Shown here piece by piece: positions 38,457 through 55,893 of a stretch of DNA of 64,000 nt. Every line of letters begins with the position of its first letter. The first letter of the stretch is position 1. The stretch lies in contig NC_019678.1 in assembly GCF_000316665.1 (NCBI RefSeq), positions 3,534,001-3,598,000 of the forward strand, written 5' to 3'. The notes under the pieces are model-generated. The model saw only the letters and a program-made list of their open reading frames with translations, was not told where the DNA came from and did not search any database. Origin of the DNA: Rivularia sp. PCC 7116. GTDB taxonomy: Bacteria > Cyanobacteriota > Cyanobacteriia > Cyanobacteriales > Nostocaceae. A program made the translations under genes and the position numbers.

Positions 38457-39155
38457 TAATTACATTATATTTAGAAAAATAAGGTTCAGTATAATTTATC
38501 TGACCGAACAGCACCAGTTGCAAAAACCTGGTTTATTTCTAATTTAACAACCTGCCGAATAATACTTTCACGACTAGAAACCGGGTTTCTTTGGGCTTCT
38601 TGAGAATGGTGCAAGAAGTTGTATTTATTTCACATCTTGCACCATTCTCAGCAACCGCCTTAGAATAAATTCTCAGGCTAATATGAAAAGTCTTCTAAAG
38701 AAGACTAGGCATGACTTGAGTGCGTTTTAACGTACTTTGTATATTAGCCGATGATTTTTATTTCTCTGCGTTCACGCGGTTAGGGTCGCTACCGTAGGTA
38801 TTGCGTGCGGGCTAGAAAGCCTCCGGCTTACAAGGTAAGTATTCAGGCTTAATGACAATGGTGCAAGATATGAGCGCCCAACGGGCGCGAAAAAACGCTC
38901 CCGCAACGAATGAAAGAAACACAAAAATCAAATAAAAGGGTCAATAACTTATACACTAAAAAAGTACCATGATAGCTTTGCACCGTCATTACACTGGTAC
39001 ATTATTCGTCCGAATGTGAGCGTGGTTCTGGGTGATATTGGCAACAGTATTGGTGAAGTAGCTTGCTACTATCCCGTGCCGGGAGATTAAATTTATTAGC
39101 CCACCCAGGCATGGTACACCCCTTCCAAATAATAAATCTATCCTTCCAGAATGCC
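38457..39155. other. Non-coding region between IS605 and the IS110 transposase
   Basis: About 700 bases with no coding frame. Contains an AAACCGGGTTTCTT repeat near 38577, inverted TGCACCATTCTCA/AATGGTGCAAGA pieces (38605-38650) and GCGGGCTAGAAAGCCTCCGGC-type hairpins. The IS110 left end, with its RNA-coding region, must lie in the right part. Confidence 0.55.
38960..39155 (+). ncRNA. Candidate bridge RNA region of IS110
   Basis: IS110-group elements encode a bridge RNA in the long left non-coding end. The IS110 coding region here runs to within a few bases of the right end, so the RNA should be left of 39156. The sequence is structured (GGTACATTATTCGTCCGAATG, CCGTGCCGGGAG). Limits are inferred only. 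Confidence 0.3.
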
Positions 39156-40542
39156 ATGAGTAAGCGCAAAAAGCTGAAAGAACAGGATTTGGATATGACT
39201 TTACTTTCCCAAATCAACCCGAATGCCGCAGGCATTGATATTGGTGCAGATAAGCACTGGGTAAGTGTTCCAGTAGGAAGAGATGAAGAAAATATACGCA
39301 ATTTCAGTTGTTTTACTCCTGACCTCTATGCAATGGCAGATTGGTTAAAGCAATGTGATATTGAAACTGTAGCAATGGAATCAACAGGCGTTTATTGGAT
39401 ACCTGTATTTCAAGTTCTAGAAAGTCGTGGTTTTGATGTTAAGCTTGTGAATGCCCACTACGTCAAAACTGTACCTGGTCGCAAAACTGATGTACTAGAT
39501 TGTCAGTGGCTACAACAGTTACATACTTATGGTTTACTCTCTGGTTCTTTTCGTCCAGAAGACCAAATTTGCAAGCTTCGTAGTTACATACGTCAAAGAG
39601 ATAATCTAATAAAAAGTGCTTGTATCCACATACAGAGGATGCAAAAAGCATTAACACAAATGAATATACAGTTGCATCGCGTAATCAGCGACATTACGGG
39701 TACCACTGGCTTGAGTATTATTAAAGCAATTGTGTCTGGAGAACGCAACCCAATCAAATTAGCCGCTCTTAAGGATGGGCGTATTAAAGCCAGCGTTGAA
39801 CAAATAGCTGCTTCCTTAACTGGAGATTATCGTCCGGAATTAGTTTTTATCCTTGAACAAGAACTACAACTTTACGAATTTTATCAAGCTCAAATTCAAA
39901 AATGCGACATTCAAATTGAGCAGTGTTTAGCTTCATTTACTGATAAGGTTGACGTTGAAAAAAAGCCTTTGAGTAAACCCAAACGTCGGGGCAAGAAGCA
40001 ACCAGGTAACGCACCACAATTTGATTTACGTACCCATTTGTATCGTATTAGTGGTGTTGATTTTACAGCCATTGACGGCTTGGGTTCTTTAAGCGTCTTA
40101 GTATTACTTTCTGAAGTTGGTTTAGACCCCACACGCTTTCCTACAGTCAAACATTTTACTTCATGGCTCGGTTTGTGTCCTGGTAGCCGTGTTACTGGCG
40201 GTAAAGTTAAAAGCTCTAAAACTCGTCCTGTTGCTAATCGCGCTGCAACTGCCTTCCGCATGGCTGCACAAACTTTATGTCGTAGCAACTCCGCTTTGGG
40301 TGGATATTACCGTCGTATGCAGTCACGGATGGGCGCTCCAAAAGCCATTACTGCTACTGCTCACCTTCCTCGCACGCATTTTCTACCGTCTTTGGATATC
40401 TGGAGATGCCTACAATGACCCTGGGATAGATGCTTATGAGCAAAAGTATCGAGAGAGGATACTTAAAAATCTCAAGAAAAAAGCTAACACTTTTGGCTTT
40501 GAACTTACTGCTATTTCAACACCTACCGAATGTGTTTCTTAG
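39156..40542 (+). pseudogene. IS110-family transposase, frameshifted
   Basis: The ATG at 39156 (MSKRKKLKEQDLDM) opens a DEDD transposase: AAGIDIGADKHWVSV and ETVAMESTGVYWIPVFQ, then the C-terminal LSVLVLLSEVGLDPTRFPTVKHFTSWLGLCPGSRVTGGK and RAATAFRMAAQTL. At about 40365 (TACTGCTCACCTTCCTCGC) the frame breaks: frame 1 ends 50 bases later, while GDAYNDPGIDAYEQKYRERIL continues in another frame to the TAG at 40540-40542. So it is a recent one-base defect or an assembly error. The stop lies within a few bases of the right end. Confidence 0.8.
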
Positions 40543-41163
40543 GAGTTGACGTTCGAGCGATTTACCCAGTTCTATCCACAGCAAGTAAAGAATGTAAGCA
40601 AAGGGGATAGTGCTGATCGTTCCCCAAATAACGCGAGCAGTTACGCTATCTGAAACTTCACCAGGATAACCTGTAGCAATCATCAATACAGATGCTACGA
40701 CTAACTTAATTAACAGTGGTTTTGCAACTTCTTTGGAGAGAGCCAAAACTGCAACAGTTTCAGTCAAAAGTAATGGTACTGTTAATATCCAGTCAGCATA
40801 GCGGTAAGCATCGTTAAACACTTCACCCGTCGTCAAATACATTAGACATCTCCGGAAATGAAGTTTTATTCCAGTAATCACAAGGGTTTCAAACTAATTA
40901 TCGGAGAGGTCTATTCCATCTTGGAGAGCATAAGCAGCCTCCCAACTATTAAAGATACGGAAGTAGTGATAGGCTGCAATACTAACAACCACACCCGAAA
41001 TGACTATAGCGGGTTTATATTTATCACCCACTTCAGACTTTGCGTTAAAGAAAAATAGGGCTGCTCCAATCATTGCTGCAATGCATAAGGATAGTGCATT
41101 GTAGACTAAATCAAATTGGCTTGAAGAAAGTGAGGGAGGGATAGATGCTAAATAATTAACCAT
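40543..41163 (-). pseudogene. Microbial rhodopsin gene (proton-pump type), broken
   Basis: The minus strand from 41163 encodes helices A and B (QFDLVYNALSLCIAAMIGAALFF, AIVISGVVVSIAAYHYFRIFNSWEAAYAL), an in-frame TAG at 40894-40896, then helices C to E: NDAYRYADWILTVPLLLTE, KLVVASVLMIATGYPGEVS and TISTIPFAYILYLLWIELGKSLERQ. The DTE triad Asp, Thr and Glu of xanthorhodopsin/Gloeobacter-type pumps is kept. After LERQ the frame enters IS110 and helices F and G with the retinal-binding Lys are missing. Two independent defects (stop codon within a 71-base insert; IS110) show it is dead. Confidence 0.88.
40843..40913. repeat. 71-base palindromic insert in the rhodopsin gene
   Basis: Arms TAGACATCTCCG (40843-40854) and CGGAGAGGTCTA (40902-40913) differ at one base. 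The element lies between the helix B end (AYALQDG) and YLTTGEVFNDAYRY, where homologues have only a few loop residues. It supplies the in-frame TAG. The frame is the same on both sides. Confidence 0.75.
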
Positions 41164-41863
41164 TGAAAGTTTTAATTCTTTGATATGTGTGATGTCTGCA
41201 TTAAAAATTAGATGCCCAAAATATAAGCGTCTAATTAGAATAAAGTCGAATTTTCAATTACCGAGAAATTGACTGTTTCCTCACAGGGATAATACATAGT
41301 AAGTACTGTAAATAACAAGTTTTTCAGACTACATTTACAGTATTTTATGTACGGAAATGTACGTAGAAAAAAGATAGAATAAAAATAAACTATAATTTTT
41401 TTAATAGCTGCTTTATTCTCTACCAGTTGAGATAATTATAATTGTGTCATTTCCATTTTTTTATTAGATATTGATGGAATTTACTGTTAAAAAAGGTGTT
41501 TGAGGGAATATTAACCAAGAGATGGTTAAATTTAAAAGTACCTCCCTTCATAGTTTTTATAATGTTTACTGTATTTCTATTAGTATATTTAAATCGTCTT
41601 TAACAAAATTATTCCATTTAGTTAAACTAATATTTACCTTTTCATACCTAAATTTTTCGGGAGCATCTCAACTATTCCTTAATTTTCTCTAGCCATAGTA
41701 TTTGTTTATATGTTTTCTGGTTTACTTGTACATTCTTAGTTACTTCAATAATATTTACTAAAAGAATATTCTTGGCTTCTATAAAAGCTGCGGTAAATGC
41801 TGTTGCTATTTAGAAGAAGCCATATTAAATAAATCAATTTATTAATAATCAAACAATAAAATA
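41164..41863. other. Long AT-rich intergenic region
   Basis: 700 bases, no coding frame longer than noise. Poly-T/A-rich; probably held the rhodopsin promoter (next to 41163) and a promoter for the following small gene. No repeats or known regulatory motif recognised. Confidence 0.5.
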
Positions 41864-42094
41864 TTGGAAAACGACAAAAGTTTTGAATTGTTACCACATC
41901 AACAGTTGTGGAATTTAGAATTTACTATTGCTGATGGTTCTTGCTGGCAAGTTATTGCGGTAACTCATAACCGAAAAACAATAATAGCGAGTTGGGTTGA
42001 GGGACAAACAACTGTGGGAATATTAAATTTATCGGGGAAAAGGCTTGCAAGTATCGCGGTTAAAGATGTGGTGGAATTGCTTGTTAATTTTTAA
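41864..42094 (+). CDS. Small hypothetical protein
   Basis: 76 aa from a TTG start (TTGGAAAACGACAAAAG). LPHQQLWNLEFTIADGSCWQVIAVTHNRKTIIASWVEGQTTVGILNLSG looks like a compact all-beta domain. No family recognised. A terminator hairpin follows 30 bases after the stop, which supports it as a real transcription unit. No good SD is visible, so the start is uncertain. Confidence 0.5.
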   Translation: MENDKSFELLPHQQLWNLEFTIADGSCWQVIAVTHNRKTIIASWVEGQTTVGILNLSGKRLASIAVKDVVELLVNF

Positions 42095-42124
42095 GTTTTT
42101 AAAAGTTCTTTTCGGATAATTATG

Positions 42125-42147
42125 AAGACGTAGCACTACTACGTCTT
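42125..42147 (+). terminator. Rho-independent type terminator
   Basis: AAGACGTAG and CTACGTCTT pair perfectly around CACTA and are followed by TAGATATTTTT. It follows the 76-aa gene. Confidence 0.75.
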
Positions 42148-42365
42148 TAGATATTTTTACTTGTTCCTTCGAGCAGGTTGTCGTTAGAAAAAATGTAACC
42201 CACTATTCTCGATATAAAATTAAACATGATTGTTTGACTCAATTTAAACTGAATATACCTTTTCCTTAACTAATCAATGAAACAGTATAGATGTGTATTT
42301 TCACGTATTTTTTGTGAGAGATAAATCTTTCTCATCTAACTGTTTATTAGGGTAAATATATTAAT

Positions 42366-45300
42366 ATGGCTGGTCAGCTAAGTCACGACAAGGTGCGTTT
42401 TGCTACATTTAATGCTTCTTTGAATCGTAATAATGCAGGGGAATTAATTACCGATTTATCTACCCCAGATAACGAGCAAGCCAAAGCTGTAGCCGAAATC
42501 ATTCAGCGAACAAATCCCGATGTTTTGTTATTGAATGAGTTTGATTATGATGAAAATGGGGAGGCGATCGCCAATTTCAAGCAGAACTATTTAGAAGTTG
42601 CTCAAAATGGTGTTGATGCTGTTGAGTATCCCTACGTTTATTTAGCACCTTCCAATACAGGTATTTCTTCTGGGTTTGATTTAAATAATGATGGTACTGT
42701 TGGCACTGAAAGCTTTGATTTAGCTAATGATGCTTTTGGTTTTGGTACTTTCCCCGGACAATATGGGATGGTATTGTTATCCAAGTATCCTATAGAAGAA
42801 TCAGAAATAAGAACTTTCCAGAATTTTTTATGGAAGGATATGCCAAATGGGTTTTTGACTAATGACCCTAGTATTGACAATCCCGATACAGAAGTCAATG
42901 AAAATTTGAATGGGTTTTATTCTGCTGAAGAAATAGAAGTACTGCGTTTATCTTCTAAAAGTCATTGGGATATTCCGGTTAATGTAAATGGTGAAATTAT
43001 TCACGTTTTAGCTTCTCACCCCACACCTCCAGTATTTGATGGTGAAGAAGATAGAAACGGTAAACGCAATCACGATGAAATCCGCTTCTGGGCTGATTAT
43101 GTAACTCCTGGGAATGGTGAATATATTTATGATGATAGTGGTGAAACTGGGGGTTTAAACTCCGGTGCAAAATTTGTCATCATGGGAGACCAAAACGCTG
43201 ACCCCAACGATGGTGACAGCACAGATAATGCAATTTTGCAACTATTAGATAATCCTCAAATTAATACTGCTGTTACTCCTTCGAGTGAAGGTGGAATTGA
43301 TGCAGCGATTCGTCAAGGTTTGAATAATCTTACTCAAACTGGTAATCCAGCATTTGATACAGCAGATTTTGCAGAAGAAAATTTTGGTGGTCCTGGAAAC
43401 ATAAGAGCGGATTATGTTTTACCTTCTAATAATTTAGATATTGAGTCAGCTGGAGTATTTTGGCCAGAAGGTGATGAAGCTGAATTTGATTTAGTCGGAG
43501 ATTTTCCTTTCCCCAGTTCCGACCATCGTTTGGTTTATGCTGATGTTGAGAAAACCAATGTTGACCGCAAAACTGTTTCTAATGTGAATTTCTTGGGAGA
43601 AGTTACTTTTCCTACTGGTTTACAGCTTGAGGAAACGGAAGTTGGGGGAATTTCTGGTTTAGCTTACGATGCTTCTAAGGGAATTTATTACGGATTATCT
43701 GACGATAGAAGTCAAATCAATCCCGCTCGTTTTTACGATATATCCATTGATTTAAGCGACGGTTCTTTGGATGATGGGGATATTAGCTTTGATAGTGTTA
43801 CTACTCTTTTAGATGAAGATGGTAATGCTTTCCCAGAGTTCAGTCTCGATCCAGAAGGAATTGTTCTCACCAAAAATAATACTTTATTTGTTTCTTCTGA
43901 AGGGGATACAAATCAATTAATCAATCCTTTTGTTAACGAGTTTTCCCTAGCTGGACAAGAAATTGGTGAATTACCAGTACCAGCGAAATTCCTACCTACA
44001 GCAAACCAAAGCAGCGGAATTCGCAACAATGCTGCTTTTGAAAGCTTAACTATTACTCCCGATGAACGTTATTTATATACTGCTGCTGAAGATGCACTTT
44101 TCCAAGATGGTGAAAGAGCAGATTTAGATAATGGTTCTTTGGTAAGAATTGCTAAATACGATTTACAAACCAGAGAAGTTGTTGGTGAATTTGTTTATGA
44201 ATTGGATGAAGTCGCTGAAGTACCAGAACCTGCTGATGGTTTTAAAGTAAATGGTTTAGTCGAATTACTTGCTACTGATAATAACGGTAGTCTTCTAGCT
44301 CTGGAGCGTTCTTTTTCTGTAGGAAAAGGTAACACGGTTAAACTTTACGAAGTCCAAACCCAAGGTGCTTTAGATGTTAGCGGTGTAAATGATTTATTCC
44401 GTGAAGAACCTTTAGAAGATGATGGAGAAATTTTAGCTCCTGGTGCTTTTGAAATTGATCCAGCGGTTAATAAGCGTTTGTTGGTAGACTTTGCTGATTT
44501 GGGAATTACTCCCGACAATTTAGAAGCTTTGGCTTTTGGTCCTACATTACCAGATGGTAGTCAAAGTTTAATTGTTGCTAGCGATAATAATTTTAACGAC
44601 ACTCAAACAACTCAGTTTCTTGCTCTTGGTTTAGATTTCGATACTACTCCCGCAGTTCTTCCCACTGTAGAAACTCCTTACACCATTGATAACGAGGAAG
44701 TTCTCGAACCAAAACCGTTAAATATTCTGTTGGTTAACGATGATGGTTTTGAAGCAGAAGGCATCGAAGTCATGTATGATGCTCTTGTCGCTGCTGGTCA
44801 TAATGTTACCTTCGTTGCACCAAAGGAACAGCAGAGCGGTAAGGGAACTTTAATTAATGTAGATAATCTGGGACAACCTACAGAAGTTGTTGAATTTGAA
44901 CCAAATAAATGGTATATAGATGCTTCTCCTGTAGTTACAACTTTAGCTGGGTTAGATTTTGTTCTTAATGGTGAAGAACCAGATTTAGTTATTTCCGGGA
45001 TTAACGAAGGGGAAAACGTTGGTGCTTCTGTTGCGATTAGTTCTGGTACGGTAAGTGCAGCAACTACCGCTACTCGTCGGAATATTCCTGCAATTGCTGT
45101 CAGTGCTGGAACTTTGCGAGATGCTGCTTTTAATGTTGACGAAGCAGAATTAGAGAAAGCTTATCAAACAGGTGCTGATACAGTTGTTGATTTAGTTAAA
45201 CAACTCAGCCTTTACTCTAGCGCTAGTGATAATAGTAAACTAATGCCAGATGGAGTTGGTTTAAATGTCAATATTCCTCCGGTTGTAGATGATATTGAAG

Positions 45301-48300
45301 GTATTTCCTACACCAAGTTAGATGGAACTGGTACTTTCAACTTGTTTGTAGATGAACTTGCTCCCGATGTTCCTGGTTTACTTTTCACTCAGGGAGAGGA
45401 AATAGAACCTTCAGAAATTACAGTTGAAGATTCCGAAGGACAAAACTTCCTTGCTGATTTTATTACCGTAACTCCTATTGATGGAGATTGGACGGCGAGT
45501 GATAATGTCCGTCAAACTTTGAGCGATAGAATTGAATCTGCTCCCGAAAATCCCACAGCAACACCTTTAAATATTCTGCTCACCAACGATGATGGTTTTG
45601 ATGCTCCTGGGATTGAAACTCTCTACAATCAACTTACTGCTGCTGGTCATAATGTAACTTTAGTTGGTCCTTTTGAACAGCAAAGCGGTACCGGAACAGT
45701 ACTTGATGTAGATAAAATCTTCCAACCTCTTGATATTACCAATGTTGGAGGTGATAAGTGGTATGTAGATGCTGGAGTTCGTACTACTACCTGGGCTGGT
45801 TTAGATTATGTCTTAGATGAACAACCAGACTTAGTAATTTCTGGGATTAATGCAGGTGAAAATATTGGACCTGGTGGTGCGGTTTCTTCTGGTACGGTAA
45901 GTGCAGCAGTTACAGCATTATTAAGAGAAGTACCAGGAATTGCAATTAGCGGTGGAATTGATTTCGCTACTTTTGAAACTCCCGATACCACTTACGATAT
46001 TGGTGCTGATTACCTTGTAAATTTAATTGCTCAACTTCAAGCAACTCAAGGTGAAGATGATTTCATTCTTCCTGACGGTAAAGGTTTAAGTATTAATATT
46101 CCTACTCGTTTACCAGATGGTGTAGATGAAATTCAACCTGCTGTATTTACAAACGCTAGCGACACCGAACCATTTAATATTGATTTTGGTCCTGTAGATG
46201 AAGATGGTAACGTCGGACTCAGATTTGCTCCAAACGCAATTCCTACAGAACCCAATCCCACATCAGAAGGAGACCAATTCTTATCAGGTTTCATTACCGT
46301 TACCCCAATTGACGGAGATTGGACAGCACCCCAGAGCGAAAGAGAAATCGCTGAAAGTATTTTAACTGCTCCAGAACCAGTTTTAGCTGGTGATTCTGAC
46401 GACCCCGCAATTTGGGTAAATCCCGATAATTCGGCTGAAAGTATTGTTATCGGAACTTTGAAAGATGGTGGTTTAGCTACCTTTAATTTACAAGGAGAAA
46501 TTCAACAGGTAATTTCAGCACCAGGATTTGGGGAACAAGCTTTATTAGGGGAAAACGAGAACCAAGAATTTGAAGAATTTGGCGATAGCGAAGCGCTGCT
46601 GCAAGCAGAACGCCGTTTCAACAACGTTGATATTATCTACAATTTCCCTCTAGCATCAATGATAATGGGTGGGGAAACAAAAGTTGATTTAGCGGTTGCT
46701 TCCGATAGAGAAAATGACACTTTAGCTATCTTTAGTATTTCCGAAAACGGTCAACTAAATAAATTACCTACACCACAATTAGATGATGCAGAATTTTCAA
46801 TTTTTGGTGTAGATGATGGGGAAGCAACGGCTTACGGTTTAGCAACTTATACCAGTCCGGTTTCTGGAAAATCCTACGTTTTCGTTACCCAAGCTGACGG
46901 TAATAAAGTTGCTCAAATCGAATTAACTTCTAAATTAGGTCCCGCTGACGAACAATTAATAGAAGCAGAAGTTGTTCGTACTTTAGAATTACCAACACCC
47001 ACAGGTGATGCAGAAGATTCTCAATCGGAAGGAGTTGTAATTGACCAAGAACTGGGTTTCCTTTACGTAGCGCTGGAAGACCAAGTAGGTATACTCAAGT
47101 TCTCTGCCGAACCAGATGCTGGTAGTGATTTTACTGTAGTTCAATCTGTAGATGCTGATTACCTAACTCCCGATATTGAAGGTTTATCAATATACTACGG
47201 TGACAACGGAACTGGTTATTTAATTGCTAACAGTCAAGGTGATTCTTCCTATGCTGTTTTCAGTCGTGAAGGTAATAACGAATATTTGGGTAGTTTCGTT
47301 GTTGGTGATAATAACGGAATTGACCAAGTAAATGAAAGCGATGGTTTAGATGTAATTAACGTACCTTTGGGTGAAGAATTCCCCAACGGATTATTAGTAT
47401 TACAAGACGGAGCAAACGACCCGCAAAATGCTGTTGAAGATGATGAAGAATTAGAAAATAACAGCACCAACTTTAAATTTGTACCTTGGGATGGAGTCGC
47501 AAATTCATTCGATAATTCCTTACAAATTAACACCAGCAGCTATGACCCACGCAATCCAAAACCACAATCCTTAATTAACGGAATTGCTAGCGGTGATACC
47601 ACCCAAAATTCTACAGTATTGTGGGCGCGGAGTACATTCGTGGGTGAAGTCACCTTTGAATATTCCACTGACGCAGAATTCAATTCCGTTATCGGAACAG
47701 TTACCGCAAACGTAGAAAACACTAACGTTCCCGTCAAAGTTGAAATTAACGGTTTAAATCCAGGAACCGAATATTATTATCGCGTTACCGATGCTGCTGG
47801 CGATAGTGCAATCGGTGAATTTGAAACTTCTGCCGAAACTGGAACAAAAGCAGGTTTACGCTTTGGTGTTGCTGGAGATTGGAGAGGTGAAATTTCTCCT
47901 TACCCCGCAATTAGTAATGCCTCGGAAAGCGATTTAGCATTCTTCGTCGAACATGGTGATACAATATACGCCGATTATGGTTCAGCCGCAGTCCTGAACG
48001 AAGATGGAAGTTTCAAAGAACAAGCGGAAACTCTTGACGAATATCGCGCTAAACACGGTGAAGTTTACGGAACTCGCTTCGGTCAAAATACCTGGACTGA
48101 TTTACGCGCTTCAACCTCAATTCTGGCTACAATTGACGACCACGAAGTAATTAACGACTTTGCAGGTGGAGAACCAGCTGCTGACGATGCTCGTTTCCCA
48201 GAACAAGCGGGTTTAATTAACGATACAGAACTCTACGAAAACGGACTGCAATCTTTCCAGGAATACAACCCCCTACGGGATGAATTCTATGAAAATACGG

Positions 48301-49811
48301 GTGATGAACTTACCGAAGGCGAGCGCAAACTATATCGTAACAATACTTACGGTAGCGATGCAGCAGTAATTACCCTTGATAACCGTTCCTTCCGCAATCA
48401 AGCCTTAGACAATCCTGATGCAACCACATTAGGCATAGACTTAGCATCAGGAGTTGACCAAACTACTGCTTTCACCAACTTTGTAGTTAACGAAGTACTT
48501 CCTTTTGAAACTGCTGCATTTGACCCCACTCGAACAATGTTGGGTCAGCCGCAATTAGAAGACTTAAAGCAGGATTTACTCAAAGCCGAACAAGACGGGA
48601 CAACTTGGAAGTTCGTCATGGTACCCGAGCCAATGCAGGCTTTGGGACCATTGCTTGGACCTGCCGACCGTTTCGACGGATATCTTAACGAACGTACCGA
48701 AATTCTCCAGTTTGTTGAAGATAACGACATTGATAACGTCGTATTTATCGCTGCGGATATTCACGGAACTTTGGTTAATAATTTAACTTACCAAGAACAA
48801 CCTGGTGGTCCGCAAATTGCTACTAATGCCTTTGAAGTTACCACTGGTTCTGTAGCTTTTGATGCACCATTTGGTCAAAGCGTTACCAATGGTGCAGCAC
48901 AACTTGGTTTTGTGACTCCCGAACAGCTTCAACAATACAACAGTTTACCCATACTCAATGCACCCGCAGGTGTTCCCAGCAAAGATGATTTCTTTACTCA
49001 ATTGCTCAACGATGCAGCTTTAACACCATTCGGTTTAGACCCAGTTGGTTTAGAAGCAGATAGCGGAATTGATGCAGAATTAATCCAAGGTGGATATGTA
49101 GCAGCACATACCTTTGGTTGGACTGAGTTCGATATTAATGCAGAAACTCAAGCATTAACCGTAACCACATACGGTATTGAGCCATATTCCGAAGAGGAAT
49201 TACTGGCAAATCCCGAAGCAATTACCAGCAGAGAACCGCAAATAGTCAGTCAATTTGTGGTTAATCCTCAAGAAGTAGACCCATTAAGCGCTACTCTCAT
49301 TGACACCAGCAATAAAGATGCAGATGGAAATGAGATAGAATTAATTGACCTCACAGCATACGCAGGTCAAACCGTAACAGCTAGTTATGAAATTAACCGA
49401 GAAGCTGATTACGACAACAACGTTTACTTCTATACAGTTGGTGACGAAGGTAAAATTGGCGAACTAGCACCTACAGATGGAACTGAGTATATCCAAGCTG
49501 CATTAAACAACGTTGTTAATTCAAGCCAAGGATTAACAACTCCCGACGAACAAATAACTATGGGAACCTTGGAAATAGCAGGTGGTGATATGCTTGGTGT
49601 TTTGATTGTTGCTGACGGTAATCTTAGTGAAGCTAAGAACAACCTTGATAGTGTAGAAGGAGTTTACTTCTCTTACATGGGAGCAAACACCGATAACGGA
49701 AGTTTCGACCACATCAAATTTGAGAATGGTATGTTCAAATTTGAAGACTTAGTTAACGGTGGTGATGAAGATTTCGACGATATTGAAATCAAGATGGAAT
49801 TTACCGTGTAA
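42366..49811 (+). CDS. Giant modular phosphorus-scavenging protein (EEP, phytase-like, SurE x2, phytase, PhoD, DUF4114)
   Basis: 2481 aa. Domains by residue: endonuclease/exonuclease/phosphatase, 1-397 (TFNASLNRNNAG, ILLLNEFD-like VLLLNEFDYDENG, MGDQNADPND, SSDHRLVYADV); esterase-like domain of phytase, 407-758 (GGISGLAYDASKGIYYGLSDD); SurE 1, 782-1061 (NILLVNDDGFEAEGIEVMYD); SurE 2, 1067-1333 (NILLTNDDGFDAPGIETLYN); 3-phytase beta-propeller, 1336-1711 (DSDDPAIWVNPDNSAESIVIG); PhoD, 1727-2301 (FVEHGDTIYADYG, IDDHEVINDF, IAADIHGTL); DUF4114, about 2318-2481. No N-terminal signal; the acidic DUF4114 end (GGDEDFDDIEI) suggests type I secretion. Each module should free phosphate from a different organic substrate (nucleic acid, nucleotides, phytate, phosphodiesters). 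No clear Pho box was found. Confidence 0.88.
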   Translation: MAGQLSHDKVRFATFNASLNRNNAGELITDLSTPDNEQAKAVAEIIQRTNPDVLLLNEFDYDENGEAIANFKQNYLEVAQNGVDAVEYPYVYLAPSNTGISSGFDLNNDGTVGTESFDLANDAFGFGTFPGQYGMVLLSKYPIEESEIRTFQNFLWKDMPNGFLTNDPSIDNPDTEVNENLNGFYSAEEIEVLRLSSKSHWDIPVNVNGEIIHVLASHPTPPVFDGEEDRNGKRNHDEIRFWADYVTPGNGEYIYDDSGETGGLNSGAKFVIMGDQNADPNDGDSTDNAILQLLDNPQINTAVTPSSEGGIDAAIRQGLNNLTQTGNPAFDTADFAEENFGGPGNIRADYVLPSNNLDIESAGVFWPEGDEAEFDLVGDFPFPSSDHRLVYADVEKTNVDRKTVSNVNFLGEVTFPTGLQLEETEVGGISGLAYDASKGIYYGLSDDRSQINPARFYDISIDLSDGSLDDGDISFDSVTTLLDEDGNAFPEFSLDPEGIVLTKNNTLFVSSEGDTNQLINPFVNEFSLAGQEIGELPVPAKFLPTANQSSGIRNNAAFESLTITPDERYLYTAAEDALFQDGERADLDNGSLVRIAKYDLQTREVVGEFVYELDEVAEVPEPADGFKVNGLVELLATDNNGSLLALERSFSVGKGNTVKLYEVQTQGALDVSGVNDLFREEPLEDDGEILAPGAFEIDPAVNKRLLVDFADLGITPDNLEALAFGPTLPDGSQSLIVASDNNFNDTQTTQFLALGLDFDTTPAVLPTVETPYTIDNEEVLEPKPLNILLVNDDGFEAEGIEVMYDALVAAGHNVTFVAPKEQQSGKGTLINVDNLGQPTEVVEFEPNKWYIDASPVVTTLAGLDFVLNGEEPDLVISGINEGENVGASVAISSGTVSAATTATRRNIPAIAVSAGTLRDAAFNVDEAELEKAYQTGADTVVDLVKQLSLYSSASDNSKLMPDGVGLNVNIPPVVDDIEGISYTKLDGTGTFNLFVDELAPDVPGLLFTQGEEIEPSEITVEDSEGQNFLADFITVTPIDGDWTASDNVRQTLSDRIESAPENPTATPLNILLTNDDGFDAPGIETLYNQLTAAGHNVTLVGPFEQQSGTGTVLDVDKIFQPLDITNVGGDKWYVDAGVRTTTWAGLDYVLDEQPDLVISGINAGENIGPGGAVSSGTVSAAVTALLREVPGIAISGGIDFATFETPDTTYDIGADYLVNLIAQLQATQGEDDFILPDGKGLSINIPTRLPDGVDEIQPAVFTNASDTEPFNIDFGPVDEDGNVGLRFAPNAIPTEPNPTSEGDQFLSGFITVTPIDGDWTAPQSEREIAESILTAPEPVLAGDSDDPAIWVNPDNSAESIVIGTLKDGGLATFNLQGEIQQVISAPGFGEQALLGENENQEFEEFGDSEALLQAERRFNNVDIIYNFPLASMIMGGETKVDLAVASDRENDTLAIFSISENGQLNKLPTPQLDDAEFSIFGVDDGEATAYGLATYTSPVSGKSYVFVTQADGNKVAQIELTSKLGPADEQLIEAEVVRTLELPTPTGDAEDSQSEGVVIDQELGFLYVALEDQVGILKFSAEPDAGSDFTVVQSVDADYLTPDIEGLSIYYGDNGTGYLIANSQGDSSYAVFSREGNNEYLGSFVVGDNNGIDQVNESDGLDVINVPLGEEFPNGLLVLQDGANDPQNAVEDDEELENNSTNFKFVPWDGVANSFDNSLQINTSSYDPRNPKPQSLINGIASGDTTQNSTVLWARSTFVGEVTFEYSTDAEFNSVIGTVTANVENTNVPVKVEINGLNPGTEYYYRVTDAAGDSAIGEFETSAETGTKAGLRFGVAGDWRGEISPYPAISNASESDLAFFVEHGDTIYADYGSAAVLNEDGSFKEQAETLDEYRAKHGEVYGTRFGQNTWTDLRASTSILATIDDHEVINDFAGGEPAADDARFPEQAGLINDTELYENGLQSFQEYNPLRDEFYENTGDELTEGERKLYRNNTYGSDAAVITLDNRSFRNQALDNPDATTLGIDLASGVDQTTAFTNFVVNEVLPFETAAFDPTRTMLGQPQLEDLKQDLLKAEQDGTTWKFVMVPEPMQALGPLLGPADRFDGYLNERTEILQFVEDNDIDNVVFIAADIHGTLVNNLTYQEQPGGPQIATNAFEVTTGSVAFDAPFGQSVTNGAAQLGFVTPEQLQQYNSLPILNAPAGVPSKDDFFTQLLNDAALTPFGLDPVGLEADSGIDAELIQGGYVAAHTFGWTEFDINAETQALTVTTYGIEPYSEEELLANPEAITSREPQIVSQFVVNPQEVDPLSATLIDTSNKDADGNEIELIDLTAYAGQTVTASYEINREADYDNNVYFYTVGDEGKIGELAPTDGTEYIQAALNNVVNSSQGLTTPDEQITMGTLEIAGGDMLGVLIVADGNLSEAKNNLDSVEGVYFSYMGANTDNGSFDHIKFENGMFKFEDLVNGGDEDFDDIEIKMEFTV

Positions 49812-49951: not shown

Positions 49952-51304
49952 ATGGTTGATCTGCTTATCATCGGTGGTAGCGATGCGGGTATTAGTGCAG
50001 CTTTACGAGCAAAGGAATTAGACCAAACAGTTAATGTCACAATTGTTGTAGCTGATAGTTATCCTAATTTCAGTATTTGCGGTATTCCATTCTATCTCAG
50101 CGGCGAAGTCCCGGATTGGCGTAATTTAGCTCACCGCACGGCAGGAGAAATCACTCAAACTGGTATCAATTTATTACTCAACCATAAAGCAGTAAGTATT
50201 GATTCCCAACAGAAAAAAGTTAAAGTAGTCAACGAAGAAAATCAAGAAAATTGGCTGACTTACGATAAGTTAGTAATTGGTACTGGTGCCGTACCCGTTC
50301 AACCTGCCATTGATGGATTAAATCAAAGTGGAGTATTTTTATTGCACTCGATGGCAGATAGTTTTGCAGTTCATCAACATTTAACTAGCAAAAAACCGCA
50401 ATCAGTAGTAATTATCGGTGACGGATACATTGGTTTAGAAATGGCAGATGCTCTGACTCACCAAGGAATAAAAGTTACTGTGGTGGGACGTTCTCCCAGC
50501 GTCATGAGAACAGTTGATGCGGGTATTGGAAATTTGATTGCTGCTAAATTACAAAGTCATCAAGTTGAAGTAGCGTCGAGCGTTGAAGTTAATGCGATTC
50601 AACAACAAGATGGACAATTAGTAGTATTTGGAACTAATAATTTCCATAAAAATGCTGACATGGTAATTGTAGCGGTGGGAGTGCAACCATTAACCGATTT
50701 AGCTGATAGCGCAGGCTTGAAAACTGGTTTACGCGGTGCAATTCAAGTTAACCGCAAAATGGGAACGAATGTTCCCGATATTTATGCAGCGGGAGACTGT
50801 GTAGAAACTTTGCACCGTTTGTTAAACAAATATATCTATCTTCCTTTAGGAACTACAGCACATAAACAAGGTCGAATCGCAGGAGAAAACGCGGTTGGTG
50901 GTAATCGCGAGTTTGCTGGTTCTCTTGGTACTCAAGTAGTGAAAATTTTTGATATGGCTGTTTCCCGTACTGGTTTGCGAGACTCGGAAGCCAAAGATGC
51001 TGGATTTGACCCTTTAACAGTTGAATTTGAAACTTGGGACCACAAAGTTTATTACCCAGGAGCAAAGAAATTACACATTCTAGTTACCGGAGACAAGCAA
51101 ACCCGAAAGCTTTTAGGAGCGCAAATTGCCGGACATTATCAAGGAGAAGTAGCCAAACGGATTGATATTTTTGCTACTGCCATATTCCATGATATGAAAG
51201 TTGAAGATATCAGCGAATTAGACCTTAGTTATACACCACCCCTTTCTAGCCCTTGGGACCCCGTACAGATGGCTGCTCAAGCTTGGGTAAAACAGCTTGC
51301 TTAA
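49952..51304 (+). CDS. FAD-dependent pyridine nucleotide-disulfide oxidoreductase (CoA-disulfide reductase/NADH oxidase-like)
   Basis: 450 aa. The FAD-binding GxGxxG-type loop is IIGGSDAGISAAL at 6-18; the redox Cys is Cys43 in FSICGIPFYLSG, a single Cys as in CoA-disulfide reductase and NADH oxidase; the NAD-binding loop is VVIIGDGYIGLEMADAL; FAD is contacted again at IYAAGDCVETLHR; the C-terminal dimer domain runs from KIFDMAVSRTGL. It would reduce a small disulfide, a polysulfide or O2 using NAD(P)H. Start fixed by SD GAGGAG. Tail WAPDV-like end; next gene 107 bases on. Confidence 0.9.
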   Translation: MVDLLIIGGSDAGISAALRAKELDQTVNVTIVVADSYPNFSICGIPFYLSGEVPDWRNLAHRTAGEITQTGINLLLNHKAVSIDSQQKKVKVVNEENQENWLTYDKLVIGTGAVPVQPAIDGLNQSGVFLLHSMADSFAVHQHLTSKKPQSVVIIGDGYIGLEMADALTHQGIKVTVVGRSPSVMRTVDAGIGNLIAAKLQSHQVEVASSVEVNAIQQQDGQLVVFGTNNFHKNADMVIVAVGVQPLTDLADSAGLKTGLRGAIQVNRKMGTNVPDIYAAGDCVETLHRLLNKYIYLPLGTTAHKQGRIAGENAVGGNREFAGSLGTQVVKIFDMAVSRTGLRDSEAKDAGFDPLTVEFETWDHKVYYPGAKKLHILVTGDKQTRKLLGAQIAGHYQGEVAKRIDIFATAIFHDMKVEDISELDLSYTPPLSSPWDPVQMAAQAWVKQLA

Positions 51305-51411
51305 GTATTTCTATTGCTGCCAATCATATATATGGAGTATATGTATATAATTTTACTTATAAATCATTGCTGGCTGCTGTAAAGTATCACATAAAAAGAT
51401 TTGCTTTTGTG

Positions 51412-54400
51412 ATGCCAAACCATCTAGATTTATTGTTTAACGTATTAACCAGTATTGCCAGTCCTATCAAAGGCAAATTAGAGCGCAATGAAACGGTAAT
51501 CAAAATATTAAAACAATTTAATTTGGCACCGGAGCATCCCCCGTCAGATTTTAGTGGAGTTTATATTTATGCTTTGGTTGAATATGGTGTTGGTAAACCA
51601 AAGTGTTTATTAGAATTTTTTCGTCAAGAGGATATTAAAAAAGCTTTTCGTAAAGCCTTTGACCACTACAATCCTTCAATTTTACTAGGTGAAGTGGAAG
51701 CTTTTCTCAATGCTTATGCTCTGGGTGATGAAATCAAAGAACTGCAATTAGATGTAATGCGTGAGGTAGCAGCTTTCGCTACTATTTTTATTGAAGTTGC
51801 GAAAAATTCTCGTACTTCTGCCGAAGTTTTAACTTCTCATCAAATAGCTTCTCTACATCAAAGAATTATTTTCGTACAAGAACAATTAGATAGATTACCG
51901 ACGCTGGAAGGAATTCGTACCGAAATGGCTCGGTTAGCAGCGGGGGAAGAGGACAAGGGGAGTGGGGGAGGGGGAGAGGGGGAGAATGTATACCTTCAAT
52001 CTCCTACTTCTAGTAATTCTACTTCAATTGCATTAGCTCAAGAAATGCGTGGTTGGTTTGAAACTTTGGGTTATCGGTTTGAACGTTATGAAGTTTGGCA
52101 GAATGACTACTTTGAGTGGATTATCAATATTCCGGTAAGACGTAACCGATATGACCGCGTGCTTGTGCGTGGAATGACTGGGGAAGTTGGGCTTAAAGAT
52201 GTGCAAGCTTTGGATTACAAAGTGTCGGAACAAAAAACAGATGAAGGTTGGTTGGTAACTGATAGACGTATTAGTAAAATTGCGCGGGATGAAATTGAGA
52301 AGCAAGAGAACGAACATTTGGAGTGTTTTACTTTTGATGAACTTGTAGCAATTGATGCGGATTTTAGCGGTTATCTCAATTGGTTGGAAGCAGAAGTTAA
52401 ACGGCGAGGTATCGATAAAAATTATGTCCCTTTGCCTTGTACTAAGGAAGAATTAGATCCGGTTAGCAAACGTACCATTGGGGTTAGTCGTTATACAGAA
52501 GAAGATGGTTGGATTGAAGGTTATATTGACCGTTGGTTGGATGACCCAGCCAAGGAGCATATTTCAATATTAGGTGAGTTTGGTACAGGTAAAACTTGGT
52601 TTGCTTTGCATTATGCTTGGGTAGCACTGCAACGATACAAAGATGCACAGCACAGGGGTGTTCAACTTCCCCGCTTACCTTTGGTGATTCCGTTGCGAGA
52701 TTATGCCAAAGCGGTAAGTGTGGAGTCGCTGTTTTCCGAGTTTTTCTTTCGTCAATATGAAATTCCCATACCCGGATATTCAGCTTTTGAACAACTCAAC
52801 CGCATGGGTAAATTATTGCTGATATTTGATGGTTTTGATGAAATGGCTGCTCGGATAAACCGTCAGGAGATGATAAATAATTTTTGGGAATTAGCCAAAG
52901 TTGTTGTTCCTGGTGCCAAGGTGATTTTAACTTGTCGCACAGAACATTTTCCCGAAGCCCAGGAAGGAAGGGCTTTGTTAAATGCGGAATTACAAGCTTC
53001 CATTGCGAATTTAACAGGAGAAACACCGCAGTTTGAAGTGTTGGAACTGGAGAAGTTTGACGATAATCAAATCCGTCAGGTGCTTTCGTTACAAACAGAA
53101 CCACGGACTGTTGAACTTGTTATGGGTAATTCCCAACTGCTGGATTTAGCCCGTCGTCCTGTTTTAACCGAATTAATTTTAGAAGCATTACCAGATATTG
53201 CAGCGGGTAAACCTGTAGATATGTCGCGGGTTTATTTGTATGCTGTGCAACGGAAAATGGAACGGGATATTAAAGCCGAGCGTACTTTTACTTCCTTAGC
53301 AGATAAGATGTATTTCCTGTGTGAATTAGCTTGGGAAATGCTTTCAACCGAGCAGATGAGTTTGAATTATCGCTTGTTTCCCGATAGGATTCGACGGTTG
53401 TTTGGTTCCGTAGTGCAGGAAGAAAAAGATTTAGACCACTGGCATTATGACATGATGGGACAGACAATGCTGATTCGTAATGCCGACGGTGATTATACTC
53501 CAGCCCATCGTTCGCTGTTGGAATTTTTTGTTGCATATAAGTTTGCGGCAGAGTTGGGAGTGTTAGCGGATGATTTTACTGAATTAGTAAAAGCGCAATC
53601 TTGTTTGGATGGGAATCCTGCATCTGTTGACTATACTTGGTCTGGTTATTTTGAGCGTCAGTTGGATGAGAATGGGTGTAGTTTGGCTATAGCTCCACTA
53701 GGGAAGTTTATTAGCGAACCGTTGGAGAAATTGAAGGAAACTTTTGGGCGATCGCCATTAACGAAAGCGGTTTTGGATTTGTTAATGGGGATGGTGGGTA
53801 ATATTGAATCGTTGATTAAAGTTATTGAGCAAACGCGGGGAAAAACAGATTCGGAAGTTGCTTATGTTGGTGGGAATGCAGCGACTTTGGTGGTGAAGGT
53901 TAATAAAGCTGCTTTGGAAGGGAAGGATTTATCGGGTACGTTGGTGAAGGGAGCAGATTTTAGTGATGCGAGTTTATCTAATGTTAATTTTCAAAAAACA
54001 AAATTAGTTGAATCTACTTTTATAAAACCTTTTGGTTTAGTTGTATCTCTAGTTTTTAGTCCAAATGATAAGTTACTGGTGACTGGTGGTGCTGATGGAG
54101 AAATTTGTTTATGGGAATTAGATTCAGGTAAACAAATTTCTAGTATTAGCGCACATAATGATTGGATAAGTTCAGTAGCTTGCAGTCCAGATGGAAAGAT
54201 TATTGCTAGTAGCAGTCGTTCAAGCGTTGTAAAATTATGGGATGCAACAACTGGAAAATGCTTAAAAATTTTACGAGGGCATAAAGATTTAGCGCGGGAA
54301 ATATCTTTTAACTCTAATGGTACTATTCTTGCAAGCAGTAGTGATGACCAAACAATAAAAATTTGGGATGTTAATACAGGACAATGTATTAATACTTTGG

Positions 54401-55893
54401 AAGGACATACTAGCCCCATATGGAGGGTAAAAATTGCCCCAAATAATAAAATTTTAGTTAGTGGTAGTTCAGATTCCTGTATTAAAATTTGGGATATTTC
54501 TAAGGGGATTTGTCTTAAAAACTTAGAAGAACATCAGGATAGTATTCTTTCCATTACATTTAGCCATGATAGCCAAATATTTGCAAGTGGAAGTAAAGAT
54601 AAAATTATCCAAATTTGGGATACAAACACAGGTAAATGTATAAAAAACTTAATTGGTCATAGTGGTACAATACGTTCTTTAGCTTTTAGTAAAAACAATA
54701 AAACTCTTTTTAGTGGAAGCACGGATTCTACTATAAAAATTTGGTCTGTTAATGATGGAGAATGCTTAAAAACAATAACAGCGCATAATTCTAGAGTTAG
54801 AAAAATTGCTCTCAATTCAAAAGGTGAAATACTCGCAAGTTGTAGCGATGACCAAACAATAAAACTTTGGGATGCTAACACCGGAGAATGTATACAAACT
54901 TTACAGGGATGTAGTCATTGGGTGGTATCTGTCACAGTTAGTCTTGATGGTAAAACTATTATTAGTGGTAATAATAACAAAACTATAAAATATTGGGATA
55001 TCAATACTGGACATTGCTTCAAAACATTAAGAGGACATGATAGATGGGTTGGTGAAGTAACCATAAGTCCTGACGGTAAAATCGTGGCTAGTAGTGGTGG
55101 CGATCGCACAATCAAAACTTGGGATTTCAATACGGGAAATCATCTGAAAACTCTACAAGGACATCTTCATCCAGTATCAGATGTCGTTTTTAGCTCAGAT
55201 GGTTTAACTCTTGCTAGTGGTAGTCACGATAGAACTATCAAATTATGGGAAATTAAAACGGGGAAGTGTGTAAAGACTTTGAAAGGACATACTTATTGGG
55301 TGAACTCAGTTGTATTGAACCCAGATAACAAAATCATAATTAGTGGAAGCAGCGATCGCACTATAAAACTATGGGATATATCTAGCGGTAAATGTCTGAG
55401 AACTTTAGAAGAACATAATGCTGGTATATTCTCATTAGTAATGTCTCCCGATGGAATAACCCTAGCAAGTGGTAGCGGAGATGGAACAATAAAATTGTGG
55501 AATATCCACACGGGTGAATGTTTAAAAACTTTGCAGTTAAAAGATAGCCATTGTGGAATATCATCAATCAAATTTAATTCCGATGGTTCCTTAATTGCTG
55601 CTGGAAATATTGAAGAAACAATCAAAATATGGGATGTTCGTAAAGGGAAATGCATCAAAACATTAAAAGGTCATACAAATAGAGTTACATCAGTTGCTTT
55701 TACCCCAGACGATAAATTATTAGTCAGCGGTAGCTTCGATGAAACAATCAAAATCTGGAATATTCAAACAGGTGAATGCATCAAAACCCTCAGCAACAAA
55801 CCCTACGCAAACATGAATATCACCAATGTAACAGGATTAACCCCAGAACAAAAGTCCTCACTCAAAGCATTAGGTGCAGTGGAAAATAATTGA
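51412..55893 (+). CDS. NACHT NTPase with restriction-endonuclease-like domain and 14 WD40 repeats
   Basis: 1493 aa from the ATG at 51412; an upstream Met at 51253 lies inside the reductase gene in another frame. Layout: helical N-terminal domain 1-175; Gly/Glu linker (GSGGGGEGEN) 180-195; restriction-endonuclease-like domain about 211-340 (GWLVTDRRISKIARDEIEKQE, ECFTFDELV); NACHT 370-700 with Walker A GEFGTGKT at 388-395 and Walker B LLLIFDGFDE near 470; pentapeptide-like stretch 835-870; then exactly 14 WD40 repeats (LWELDSGKQ ... IWNIQTGEC), i.e. two seven-bladed propellers. STAND proteins of this type act as signal switches, often in anti-phage defence or cell death. No catalytic QxK Lys is visible in the nuclease-like domain, so it may be inactive. 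Confidence 0.88.
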   Translation: MPNHLDLLFNVLTSIASPIKGKLERNETVIKILKQFNLAPEHPPSDFSGVYIYALVEYGVGKPKCLLEFFRQEDIKKAFRKAFDHYNPSILLGEVEAFLNAYALGDEIKELQLDVMREVAAFATIFIEVAKNSRTSAEVLTSHQIASLHQRIIFVQEQLDRLPTLEGIRTEMARLAAGEEDKGSGGGGEGENVYLQSPTSSNSTSIALAQEMRGWFETLGYRFERYEVWQNDYFEWIINIPVRRNRYDRVLVRGMTGEVGLKDVQALDYKVSEQKTDEGWLVTDRRISKIARDEIEKQENEHLECFTFDELVAIDADFSGYLNWLEAEVKRRGIDKNYVPLPCTKEELDPVSKRTIGVSRYTEEDGWIEGYIDRWLDDPAKEHISILGEFGTGKTWFALHYAWVALQRYKDAQHRGVQLPRLPLVIPLRDYAKAVSVESLFSEFFFRQYEIPIPGYSAFEQLNRMGKLLLIFDGFDEMAARINRQEMINNFWELAKVVVPGAKVILTCRTEHFPEAQEGRALLNAELQASIANLTGETPQFEVLELEKFDDNQIRQVLSLQTEPRTVELVMGNSQLLDLARRPVLTELILEALPDIAAGKPVDMSRVYLYAVQRKMERDIKAERTFTSLADKMYFLCELAWEMLSTEQMSLNYRLFPDRIRRLFGSVVQEEKDLDHWHYDMMGQTMLIRNADGDYTPAHRSLLEFFVAYKFAAELGVLADDFTELVKAQSCLDGNPASVDYTWSGYFERQLDENGCSLAIAPLGKFISEPLEKLKETFGRSPLTKAVLDLLMGMVGNIESLIKVIEQTRGKTDSEVAYVGGNAATLVVKVNKAALEGKDLSGTLVKGADFSDASLSNVNFQKTKLVESTFIKPFGLVVSLVFSPNDKLLVTGGADGEICLWELDSGKQISSISAHNDWISSVACSPDGKIIASSSRSSVVKLWDATTGKCLKILRGHKDLAREISFNSNGTILASSSDDQTIKIWDVNTGQCINTLEGHTSPIWRVKIAPNNKILVSGSSDSCIKIWDISKGICLKNLEEHQDSILSITFSHDSQIFASGSKDKIIQIWDTNTGKCIKNLIGHSGTIRSLAFSKNNKTLFSGSTDSTIKIWSVNDGECLKTITAHNSRVRKIALNSKGEILASCSDDQTIKLWDANTGECIQTLQGCSHWVVSVTVSLDGKTIISGNNNKTIKYWDINTGHCFKTLRGHDRWVGEVTISPDGKIVASSGGDRTIKTWDFNTGNHLKTLQGHLHPVSDVVFSSDGLTLASGSHDRTIKLWEIKTGKCVKTLKGHTYWVNSVVLNPDNKIIISGSSDRTIKLWDISSGKCLRTLEEHNAGIFSLVMSPDGITLASGSGDGTIKLWNIHTGECLKTLQLKDSHCGISSIKFNSDGSLIAAGNIEETIKIWDVRKGKCIKTLKGHTNRVTSVAFTPDDKLLVSGSFDETIKIWNIQTGECIKTLSNKPYANMNITNVTGLTPEQKSSLKALGAVENN

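Follow-up and report, generated by a model that had tools for sequence, protein, structure and literature searches.

The window analysed here, a 64,000-nt stretch of the Rivularia sp. PCC 7116 genome (RefSeq assembly GCF_000316665.1, contig NC_019678.1, positions 3,534,001 to 3,598,000), carries a gene in which six enzyme-type modules of five families are joined in one chain. The open reading frame (ORF; window positions 42366-49811, forward strand) is uninterrupted, starts with ATG and encodes 2481 aa (267 kDa); we think it likely that the product is a covalent, exported complex that scavenges organic phosphorus. From the N to the C terminus, Pfam detects Exo_endo_phos (EEP; aa 14-387), Phytase-like (PHYL; aa 424-743), SurE in two stretches, beta-propeller 3-phytase (BPP; aa 1417-1729 plus an N-terminal piece), PhoD_N (aa 1739-1821) followed by PhoD (aa 1846-2170), and DUF4114 (aa 2406-2479), with short linkers between the modules. 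A first-pass annotation, made from the letters alone, had described a single polypeptide with six phosphorus-related modules, and both the single frame and the domain scores bear this out. All matches exceed the curated cut-offs: 297 bits (cut-off 27.6) for PHYL (PF13449), 264 bits (22.1) for SurE (PF01975), 221 bits (21) for 3-phytase (PF02333), 152 bits (27) for PhoD (PF09423), 101 bits (24.5) for EEP (PF03372), 62 bits (30) for PhoD_N (PF16655) and 44 bits (27) for DUF4114, whose accession is PF13448 and not the PF14252 given earlier. A search with the whole protein also matches TIGR00087 (SurE) with 253.7 bits (135.1), again in two stretches; the NCBIfam equivalog AlkPhosPhoDBac is not reached by the PhoD module (93 bits against a cut-off of 1000).

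Such a chain might be imagined to result from an assembly or sequencing error that joined separate genes. The host genome is assembled in only 3 contigs (8.7 Mb in total), and the same chain is present in a second genome of the genus (G004, locus L041), with the same module order plus one GDSL insert, with 83.5% of residues identical up to aa 1593 and 68% in aa 1600-2481. We compared the two genes in 8 segments with our own Nei-Gojobori script and obtained the following ratios of nonsynonymous to synonymous change (dN/dS): EEP 0.13, PHYL 0.15, SurE1 0.15, SurE2 0.27, BPP first part 0.25, BPP second part 0.11, PhoD 0.24 and DUF4114 0.20. All 8 segments are under purifying selection. Recurrence of the chain in G004 together with dN/dS of 0.11-0.27 shows that the fusion is neither a chance product nor an assembly join, and we regard the artefact as refuted.

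Residues expected at active sites are largely retained. Conservation was assessed in alignments of distinct family members (96 EEP, 94 PHYL, 80 BPP and 21 PhoD sequences), from which modules covered to less than 85% by the local profile were excluded. EEP residues N16, E58, H218, D275, N277, D386 and H387 are identical in 96/96 sequences; we take their catalytic roles to be those of the EEP superfamily (N/E...D.N...DH motifs). No solved structure was found to be similar in sequence to this module, apart from one chance-level match (E 0.76), and its activity may be that of a nuclease or of a phosphatase. The SurE motifs DDG, QQSG and SGIN, presumably the Asp-Asp, Ser and Asn metal motifs, are invariant in all 10 aligned copies, including both copies of the window. 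The BPP module matches phytase structures 1poo, 1cvm and 3amr with E-values from 2e-49 to 3e-54 (1poo, 3.4e-54), and its alignment to 1poo retains equivalents of R122, Y159, E211, E227, D258, E260 and D308, each found in 79 or 80 of the 80 family sequences; these we take to be Ca2+ and phosphate ligands. Many acidic positions of PHYL are invariant (94/94). Nine active-site residues of B. subtilis PhoD, an enzyme with Fe/Ca ligands, are quoted in the accessible part of PMC6713934, and six of them (D151, D209, D210, N215, D380 and H382) have equivalents here; in the family, D1865, D1925 and E1927 occur in 21/21 sequences and D1924, D2131 and H2133 in 20/21. Most metal ligands are therefore present across the modules; the first-pass annotation had named their loss in most modules as evidence against its own reading.

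Over their full length the SurE copies share 49% identity; the duplication had been noticed earlier, with a similarity of about 43% in key motifs estimated by eye. We surveyed 386 cyanobacterial genomes with a profile made from the fused copies. SurE matches are present in 366 of them, and at least five genomes have SurE in frames longer than 2000 aa, always as a tandem pair. Among the matches listed, the fused copies score 320-441 bits and the next best match 122 bits, a gap which is partly built in because the profile came from the fused copies; a fused SurE of low score may also go unseen, since the survey shows best matches. All five genomes belong to the 39 with the EEP core described below. 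With four further loci (L041, L031, L107 and L118), which have the core by construction, since EEP-PHYL or the full-length protein served as query, the fused loci number nine; exactly two copies are present in 9/9, and the pair directly follows a Phytase-like match in each.

In a phylogenetic tree the fused copies form one clade, separate from stand-alone SurE (support 100/100). First copies group with first copies (S1) and second with second (S2) in six loci (L031, L107, L118 and L157-L159), and each window copy pairs with its counterpart of the same number in L041. This grouping by position across species indicates that the duplication is old and that the pair was inherited or moved ready-made, which does not support taking the duplication as evidence that the modules were gained recently. 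A single ancient duplication is likely from the tree, which leaves the event unplaced relative to the deepest split and has long branches, those of the L160 copies among them. Gain of modules as such is upheld: in L022 (genome G001), which lacks SurE, the PHYL-BPP junction lies exactly at the position of the SurE cassette of the window. SurE acts as a dimer, and the obligatory tandem suggests that the fused pair may be a single-chain pseudo-dimer; an AlphaFold2 model of the pair (560 aa, 4-row alignment) was of low confidence, with a predicted local distance difference test (pLDDT) score of 44.8. The 10-copy alignment shows an apparent indel between S1 and S2 near the INIP motif. A search of plasmids with the pair gave 113 records, all below 60% identity; among the 15 matches listed, the match spans about one SurE gene, annotated as SurE where there is an annotation. 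One member with the SurE pair, L118 from Nostoc carneum NIES-2107 plasmid1, is plasmid-borne by its record title.

Both phytase-type modules appear to be propellers. PHYL is predicted to be a beta-propeller (AlphaFold2 model, pLDDT 89.8, predicted template modelling score 0.89); among the 50 of 682 PDB matches shown for the model, most are generic propellers, with template modelling scores of at most 0.45. In relatives, enzymes are recurrently nested in propellers. A GDSL domain lies inside the BPP of L041, L042, L043, L023 and L056 (the BPP of the window is uninterrupted), and in L022 and L021, the latter being the L041 gene again, the insert directly precedes the DIEG motif; GDPD lies between two Phytase-like parts in L035, L036 and an RTX protein of the host's own genome (L174); and in L160 Phytase-like itself lies between two choice-of-anchor I parts. 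These arrangements bear on whether the product is a polyprotein, exported whole and cut outside into separate enzymes, so that fusion would serve co-export and fixed stoichiometry only. The short linkers and the exchange of modules as units fit such processing, but modules nested in this way would not be releasable by linker cleavage, and by Pfam the chain contains no protease module; we consider a polyprotein quite improbable.

The chain is also a mosaic. Synonymous divergence from L041 is 0.38-0.60 for EEP, PHYL, SurE and the second part of BPP, and reaches 0.85 in the first part of BPP, 1.07 in PhoD and 0.73 in DUF4114. PhoD of the window is 61% identical to that of L041 and 60-62% identical to those of other lineages, while the first part of BPP is nearest to L042 (75%, versus 64% for L041). 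From this uneven divergence and these affinities, modules have probably been replaced within the lineage; by the same comparisons the history of PhoD differs from that of the N-terminal half, as the earlier proposal of build-up by module gain would have it. An acidic insert of about 24 residues is present in the first part of BPP (window 46542-46613, aa 1393-1416); L021, L022 and L031 are without it. A degenerate paralogue lies about 138 kb away in the same genome (L121:8986-10157; C1 ~3722000), consisting of the promoter block that also precedes the window gene, a GDSL end, the second half of BPP, other sequence and a DUF4114 scrap; its BPP half is 93% identical to the window at the amino acid level and 90% at the DNA level.

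The first-pass annotation implied that the protein was unique, and here it needs correction: the window protein, though unusual, is not alone, and belongs to a scarcely described, modular cyanobacterial family. At E <=1e-60 the EEP type occurs in 39/386 sampled cyanobacterial genomes and 22/142 genera, in frames of 944-4421 aa in 35 genomes and 432-465 aa in the other 4. An EEP-PHYL query against GTDB r220 genomes gave 284 relatives, of which the best 80 were kept as loci (in 6 of these the frame runs off the end of the locus). EEP and PHYL are present in 80/80, as the query requires, at least a partial BPP in 72, and a second partial Phytase-like match in many. PhoD was found in 17 (some partial), GDPD in 14, DUF4114 in 18, the SurE pair in 3 and GDSL in 4, every one inside BPP. 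PhoD, GDPD, GDSL, SurE, RTX and DUF4114 are exchangeable partners of the EEP core, and we propose that the shuffling of modules about a conserved EEP-PHYL-BPP core has produced the window gene among others. The largest annotated members, L158 and L159 (4416 and 4218 aa), exceed the window protein and have the order EEP-PHYL-BPP-PHYL'-SurE-SurE-PhoD-GDPD-GDPD-RTX. Record titles of the 80 loci are cyanobacterial except for that of L058, an EEP-PHYL-BPP-RTX protein of the alphaproteobacterium Reyranella sp. CPCC 100927, which suggests transfer between phyla.

The composition of the protein points to secretion. It has 0 Cys in 2481 residues, as against 11.6 per 1000 residues in 10 other ORFs of the window, and an isoelectric point (pI) of 4.05; an N-terminal signal was not seen in a hydropathy scan, which is not a signal-peptide predictor (11-mer hydropathy at most 0.38). 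Family members above 900 aa number 92; 71 of them are free of Cys and the rest have at most 3. Across the 92, pI is 4.1-4.7 and a hydrophobic N-terminal stretch occurs in 2. According to the accessible text of PMC11424642, type I substrates are marked by absence of a signal peptide, Ca2+ motifs, pI <5, few or no cysteines and glycine richness; acidic, free of cysteine and large, the window protein resembles the RTX exoproteins treated there and in PMC3034196 (both available in part), the latter a 2010 review that predicts four RTX phytases and five phosphatases. At least one RTX-type repeat is present in the same frame in 45 of the best 80 relatives, and in many of them RTX tails stand where the window protein has DUF4114. 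Matches to DUF4114 number 16 in the host genome and those to HlyB above cut-off 3, one HlyB gene lying beside HlyD and DUF4114 genes (L166). The protein is probably exported by a type I route, for which this signature is good though indirect evidence; to that extent it upholds the earlier idea of a secreted protein.

A Pho-box-like site precedes the gene. It is the sole match (at most 3 mismatches, both strands, 0.61 expected) in the 64-kb window to the cyanobacterial consensus quoted in the accessible part of PMC9846622. L041, L042 and L043 share the block amid otherwise poorly alignable DNA; the same alignment does not clearly show it in L047, L051 and L056, of which L047 and L051 carry Pho-box-like sites of their own. 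A best score of at least 20/24 was found in 40 of 93 upstream stretches (500 bases) of family genes, 35 on the coding strand, as against 42 of 343 other ORFs of the same loci, 24 on the coding strand (one-sided test on best scores, p = 2.4e-10, a value that is too small because relatives are not independent). With a position weight matrix built from 19 family sites, leaving out the window and its close orthologues, the site ranks first in the window (18.3 bits versus 14.2 for the next), and the degenerate paralogue L121 carries the same site with 24.8 bits.

Several observations weigh against a wholly catalytic, exported and phosphate-regulated chain. To our knowledge PHYL has no known catalytic site, K179 of the BPP is Ala in the window, and in PhoD C124 is changed to D, Y152 to T and N216 to D; Asp in place of C124 (D1838) is found in 21/21 family sequences, which makes it a family trait rather than decay. 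With regard to export, the protein differs from RTX exoproteins in its DUF4114 end and in the absence of RTX repeats (0 matches to one pattern, GGxGxDx(L/I/F/V)), and DUF4114 is a candidate, not a proven, export signal. As a positive control we searched about 1.5 kb around each of 6 of the 12 pstS-like matches of the same genome, and a box of this form was in the expected place in 0/6; nor was a strong site found at the host's own locus for a PhoA-RTX protein and a GDPD-in-PHYL protein (L174). Authors working on Nodularia likewise found no such box (PMC9846622, accessible part), and the Nodularia gene nsp7010, discussed below, is likened to the window gene by annotation alone, not by sequence. 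In view of these negatives we lowered the regulatory claim: regulation by phosphate, anticipated in the first-pass annotation, is plausible from the site and stands against a negative pstS control.

Another possibility is that only some modules are catalytic and that the propellers, above all PHYL, are binding or display scaffolds bearing the true enzymes. Repeated insertion of domains into propellers, a PHYL without a close solved relative among the matches shown, and the loss of K179 in the BPP would fit this arrangement; the near-invariance of the BPP ligand positions and the many invariant acidic positions of PHYL would not be expected from it, and we find it unlikely. A different target has been considered as well, namely DNA or nucleotide signals outside the cell (biofilm, competitors, phage DNA), phosphate being a by-product and nutrition not the purpose. 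EEP and SurE suit the turnover of nucleic acids and nucleotides, and a NACHT-type gene lies two genes downstream; phytase, PhoD and the GDPD modules of relatives suit general use of organic phosphorus, and 0/5 neighbouring proteins recur beside the gene in the three close relatives compared (1-10 kb on each side). We give this target very little weight beside phosphorus scavenging.

The modules have known counterparts. The BPP is homologous to Bacillus beta-propeller phytase (1poo, 1h6l, 3amr), a stand-alone enzyme, with ligands retained except for the replaced K179. The SurE copies belong to the same family as SurE 5'/3'-nucleotidase (TIGR00087) and share its metal motifs, yet typical SurE is a stand-alone protein of about 260 aa. 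Bacillus subtilis PhoD (2yeq) likewise combines PhoD_N with PhoD and shares the six retained active-site residues, but it has a twin-arginine translocation signal, which the window protein lacks, and C124 where the window has Asp. The closest proteins in print are a GlpQ-phytase protein of Nodularia and Psip1 with a phytase-like domain. Nodularia spumigena, also a filamentous cyanobacterium with organic-phosphorus enzymes, has nsp6490, with two GlpQ domains and a phytase domain, and nsp7010, an atypical alkaline phosphatase with 'esterase-like activity of phytase' (PMC3610870, PMC9846622); these are described as induced by phosphorus limitation, nsp7010 being up 5.53 log2 at day 7 without phosphorus and the DUF4114 gene nsp6990, two gene numbers away, up 2.55 log2 (PMC9846622). 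In the accessible parts of these papers no SurE pair or PhoD fusion is described. Psip1 of Cyanobium, Prochlorothrix and Myxosarcina (PMC11098088, available in part) is similarly a cyanobacterial phosphatase joined to a phytase-like domain, but it is a PhoX-like propeller in its authors' model, with an added phytase-like domain and not the seven-domain order; identity of the EEP module with Psip1 was dropped on that description, not on sequence. No description of an EEP/SurE/BPP/PhoD fusion was found in the accessible open-licence PMC literature, and the word 'phytase' was not found in the accessible part of a paper on the Anabaena 7120 exoproteome.

We propose the following course for the scavenging complex. 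Phosphate limitation would switch on transcription from a Pho-box-type promoter; the chain would be exported unfolded by a type I (HlyB/HlyD/TolC-like) system by means of the DUF4114 C-terminal end, and would fold outside the cell with Ca2+. There EEP and PhoD could open phosphodiesters, be they nucleic acids or others, the SurE pair take phosphate off nucleotides and the BPP strip phytate, the freed phosphate being taken up by Pst transporters. Covalent joining would fix the ratio of the enzymes and hold them near one another once outside the cell. Organic phosphorus can sustain cyanobacteria, and single genes of this kind could open several of its pools at once: nucleic acids, nucleotides, phytate and other diesters. 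The variable modules may record the organic phosphorus met by each lineage. One may ask whether covalent exoenzymes at a fixed ratio are better than separate ones in dilute water, whether a fused SurE works as a single-chain dimer, and whether enzymes can be mounted in propellers without loss of either activity. A bolder view, tentative and in our opinion rather doubtful, is that these proteins make up an unrecognised class of exported single-chain 'phosphosomes', a covalent counterpart of the cellulosome for organic phosphorus with domains strung after and inserted into phytase-type beta-propellers; the tandem SurE would then be an exported nucleotidase lineage, a dimeric cytosolic enzyme turned pseudo-dimer, with products of EEP and PhoD passing directly to SurE.

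Table 1. Coordinates of the multi-phosphatase gene, its modules and the upstream site in the window.
Feature	Position	Strand	Properties or basis
Whole ORF, 2481 aa	42366..49811	+	pI 4.05, 0 Cys, N-terminal hydrophobic stretch absent
EEP module, aa 5-395	42378..43550	+	PF03372 and family-invariant residues
PHYL (PF13449), aa 401-770, predicted beta-propeller	43566..44675	+	Pfam, AlphaFold2
SurE copy 1, aa 783-1057	44712..45536	+	PF01975, TIGR00087, invariant motifs
SurE copy 2, aa 1066-1331	45561..46358	+	PF01975/TIGR00087, invariant motifs; 49% identical to copy 1
BPP, aa 1342-1734, uninterrupted	46389..47567	+	PF02333; PDB matches; ligand alignment
PhoD with PhoD_N, aa 1735-2308	47568..49289	+	PF16655 and PF09423; alignment to 2yeq and 9uya
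C-terminal region, DUF4114 at end (PF13448, aa 2406-2479); candidate type I export end	49329..49808	+	Pfam
Pho-box-like site, three 8-base half-sites	42243..42272	+	94-123 bases 5' of ATG

Upstream of the gene lies an IS110-type transposase (39063-40418, forward strand), followed by about 1.8 kb before the Pho-box-like site (40419-42242) in which no ORF reaches 150 aa. The NACHT-type protein downstream (51253-55893, forward strand) has 1546 aa, with an NNH5 N-terminal helical domain, a NACHT-associated inactive restriction endonuclease domain and 14 WD40 stretches. Elsewhere in the host genome, L174:402-6188 encodes a PhoA-type alkaline phosphatase with an RTX repeat match, beside the RTX protein that has GDPD inside Phytase-like; this is likely a second locus of phosphorus-scavenging exoenzymes. 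L175:5440-15417 encodes a protein of 3325 aa that combines choice-of-anchor I propellers with Phytase-like, 5'-nucleotidase C-terminal, lamin-tail and DUF4114 domains.

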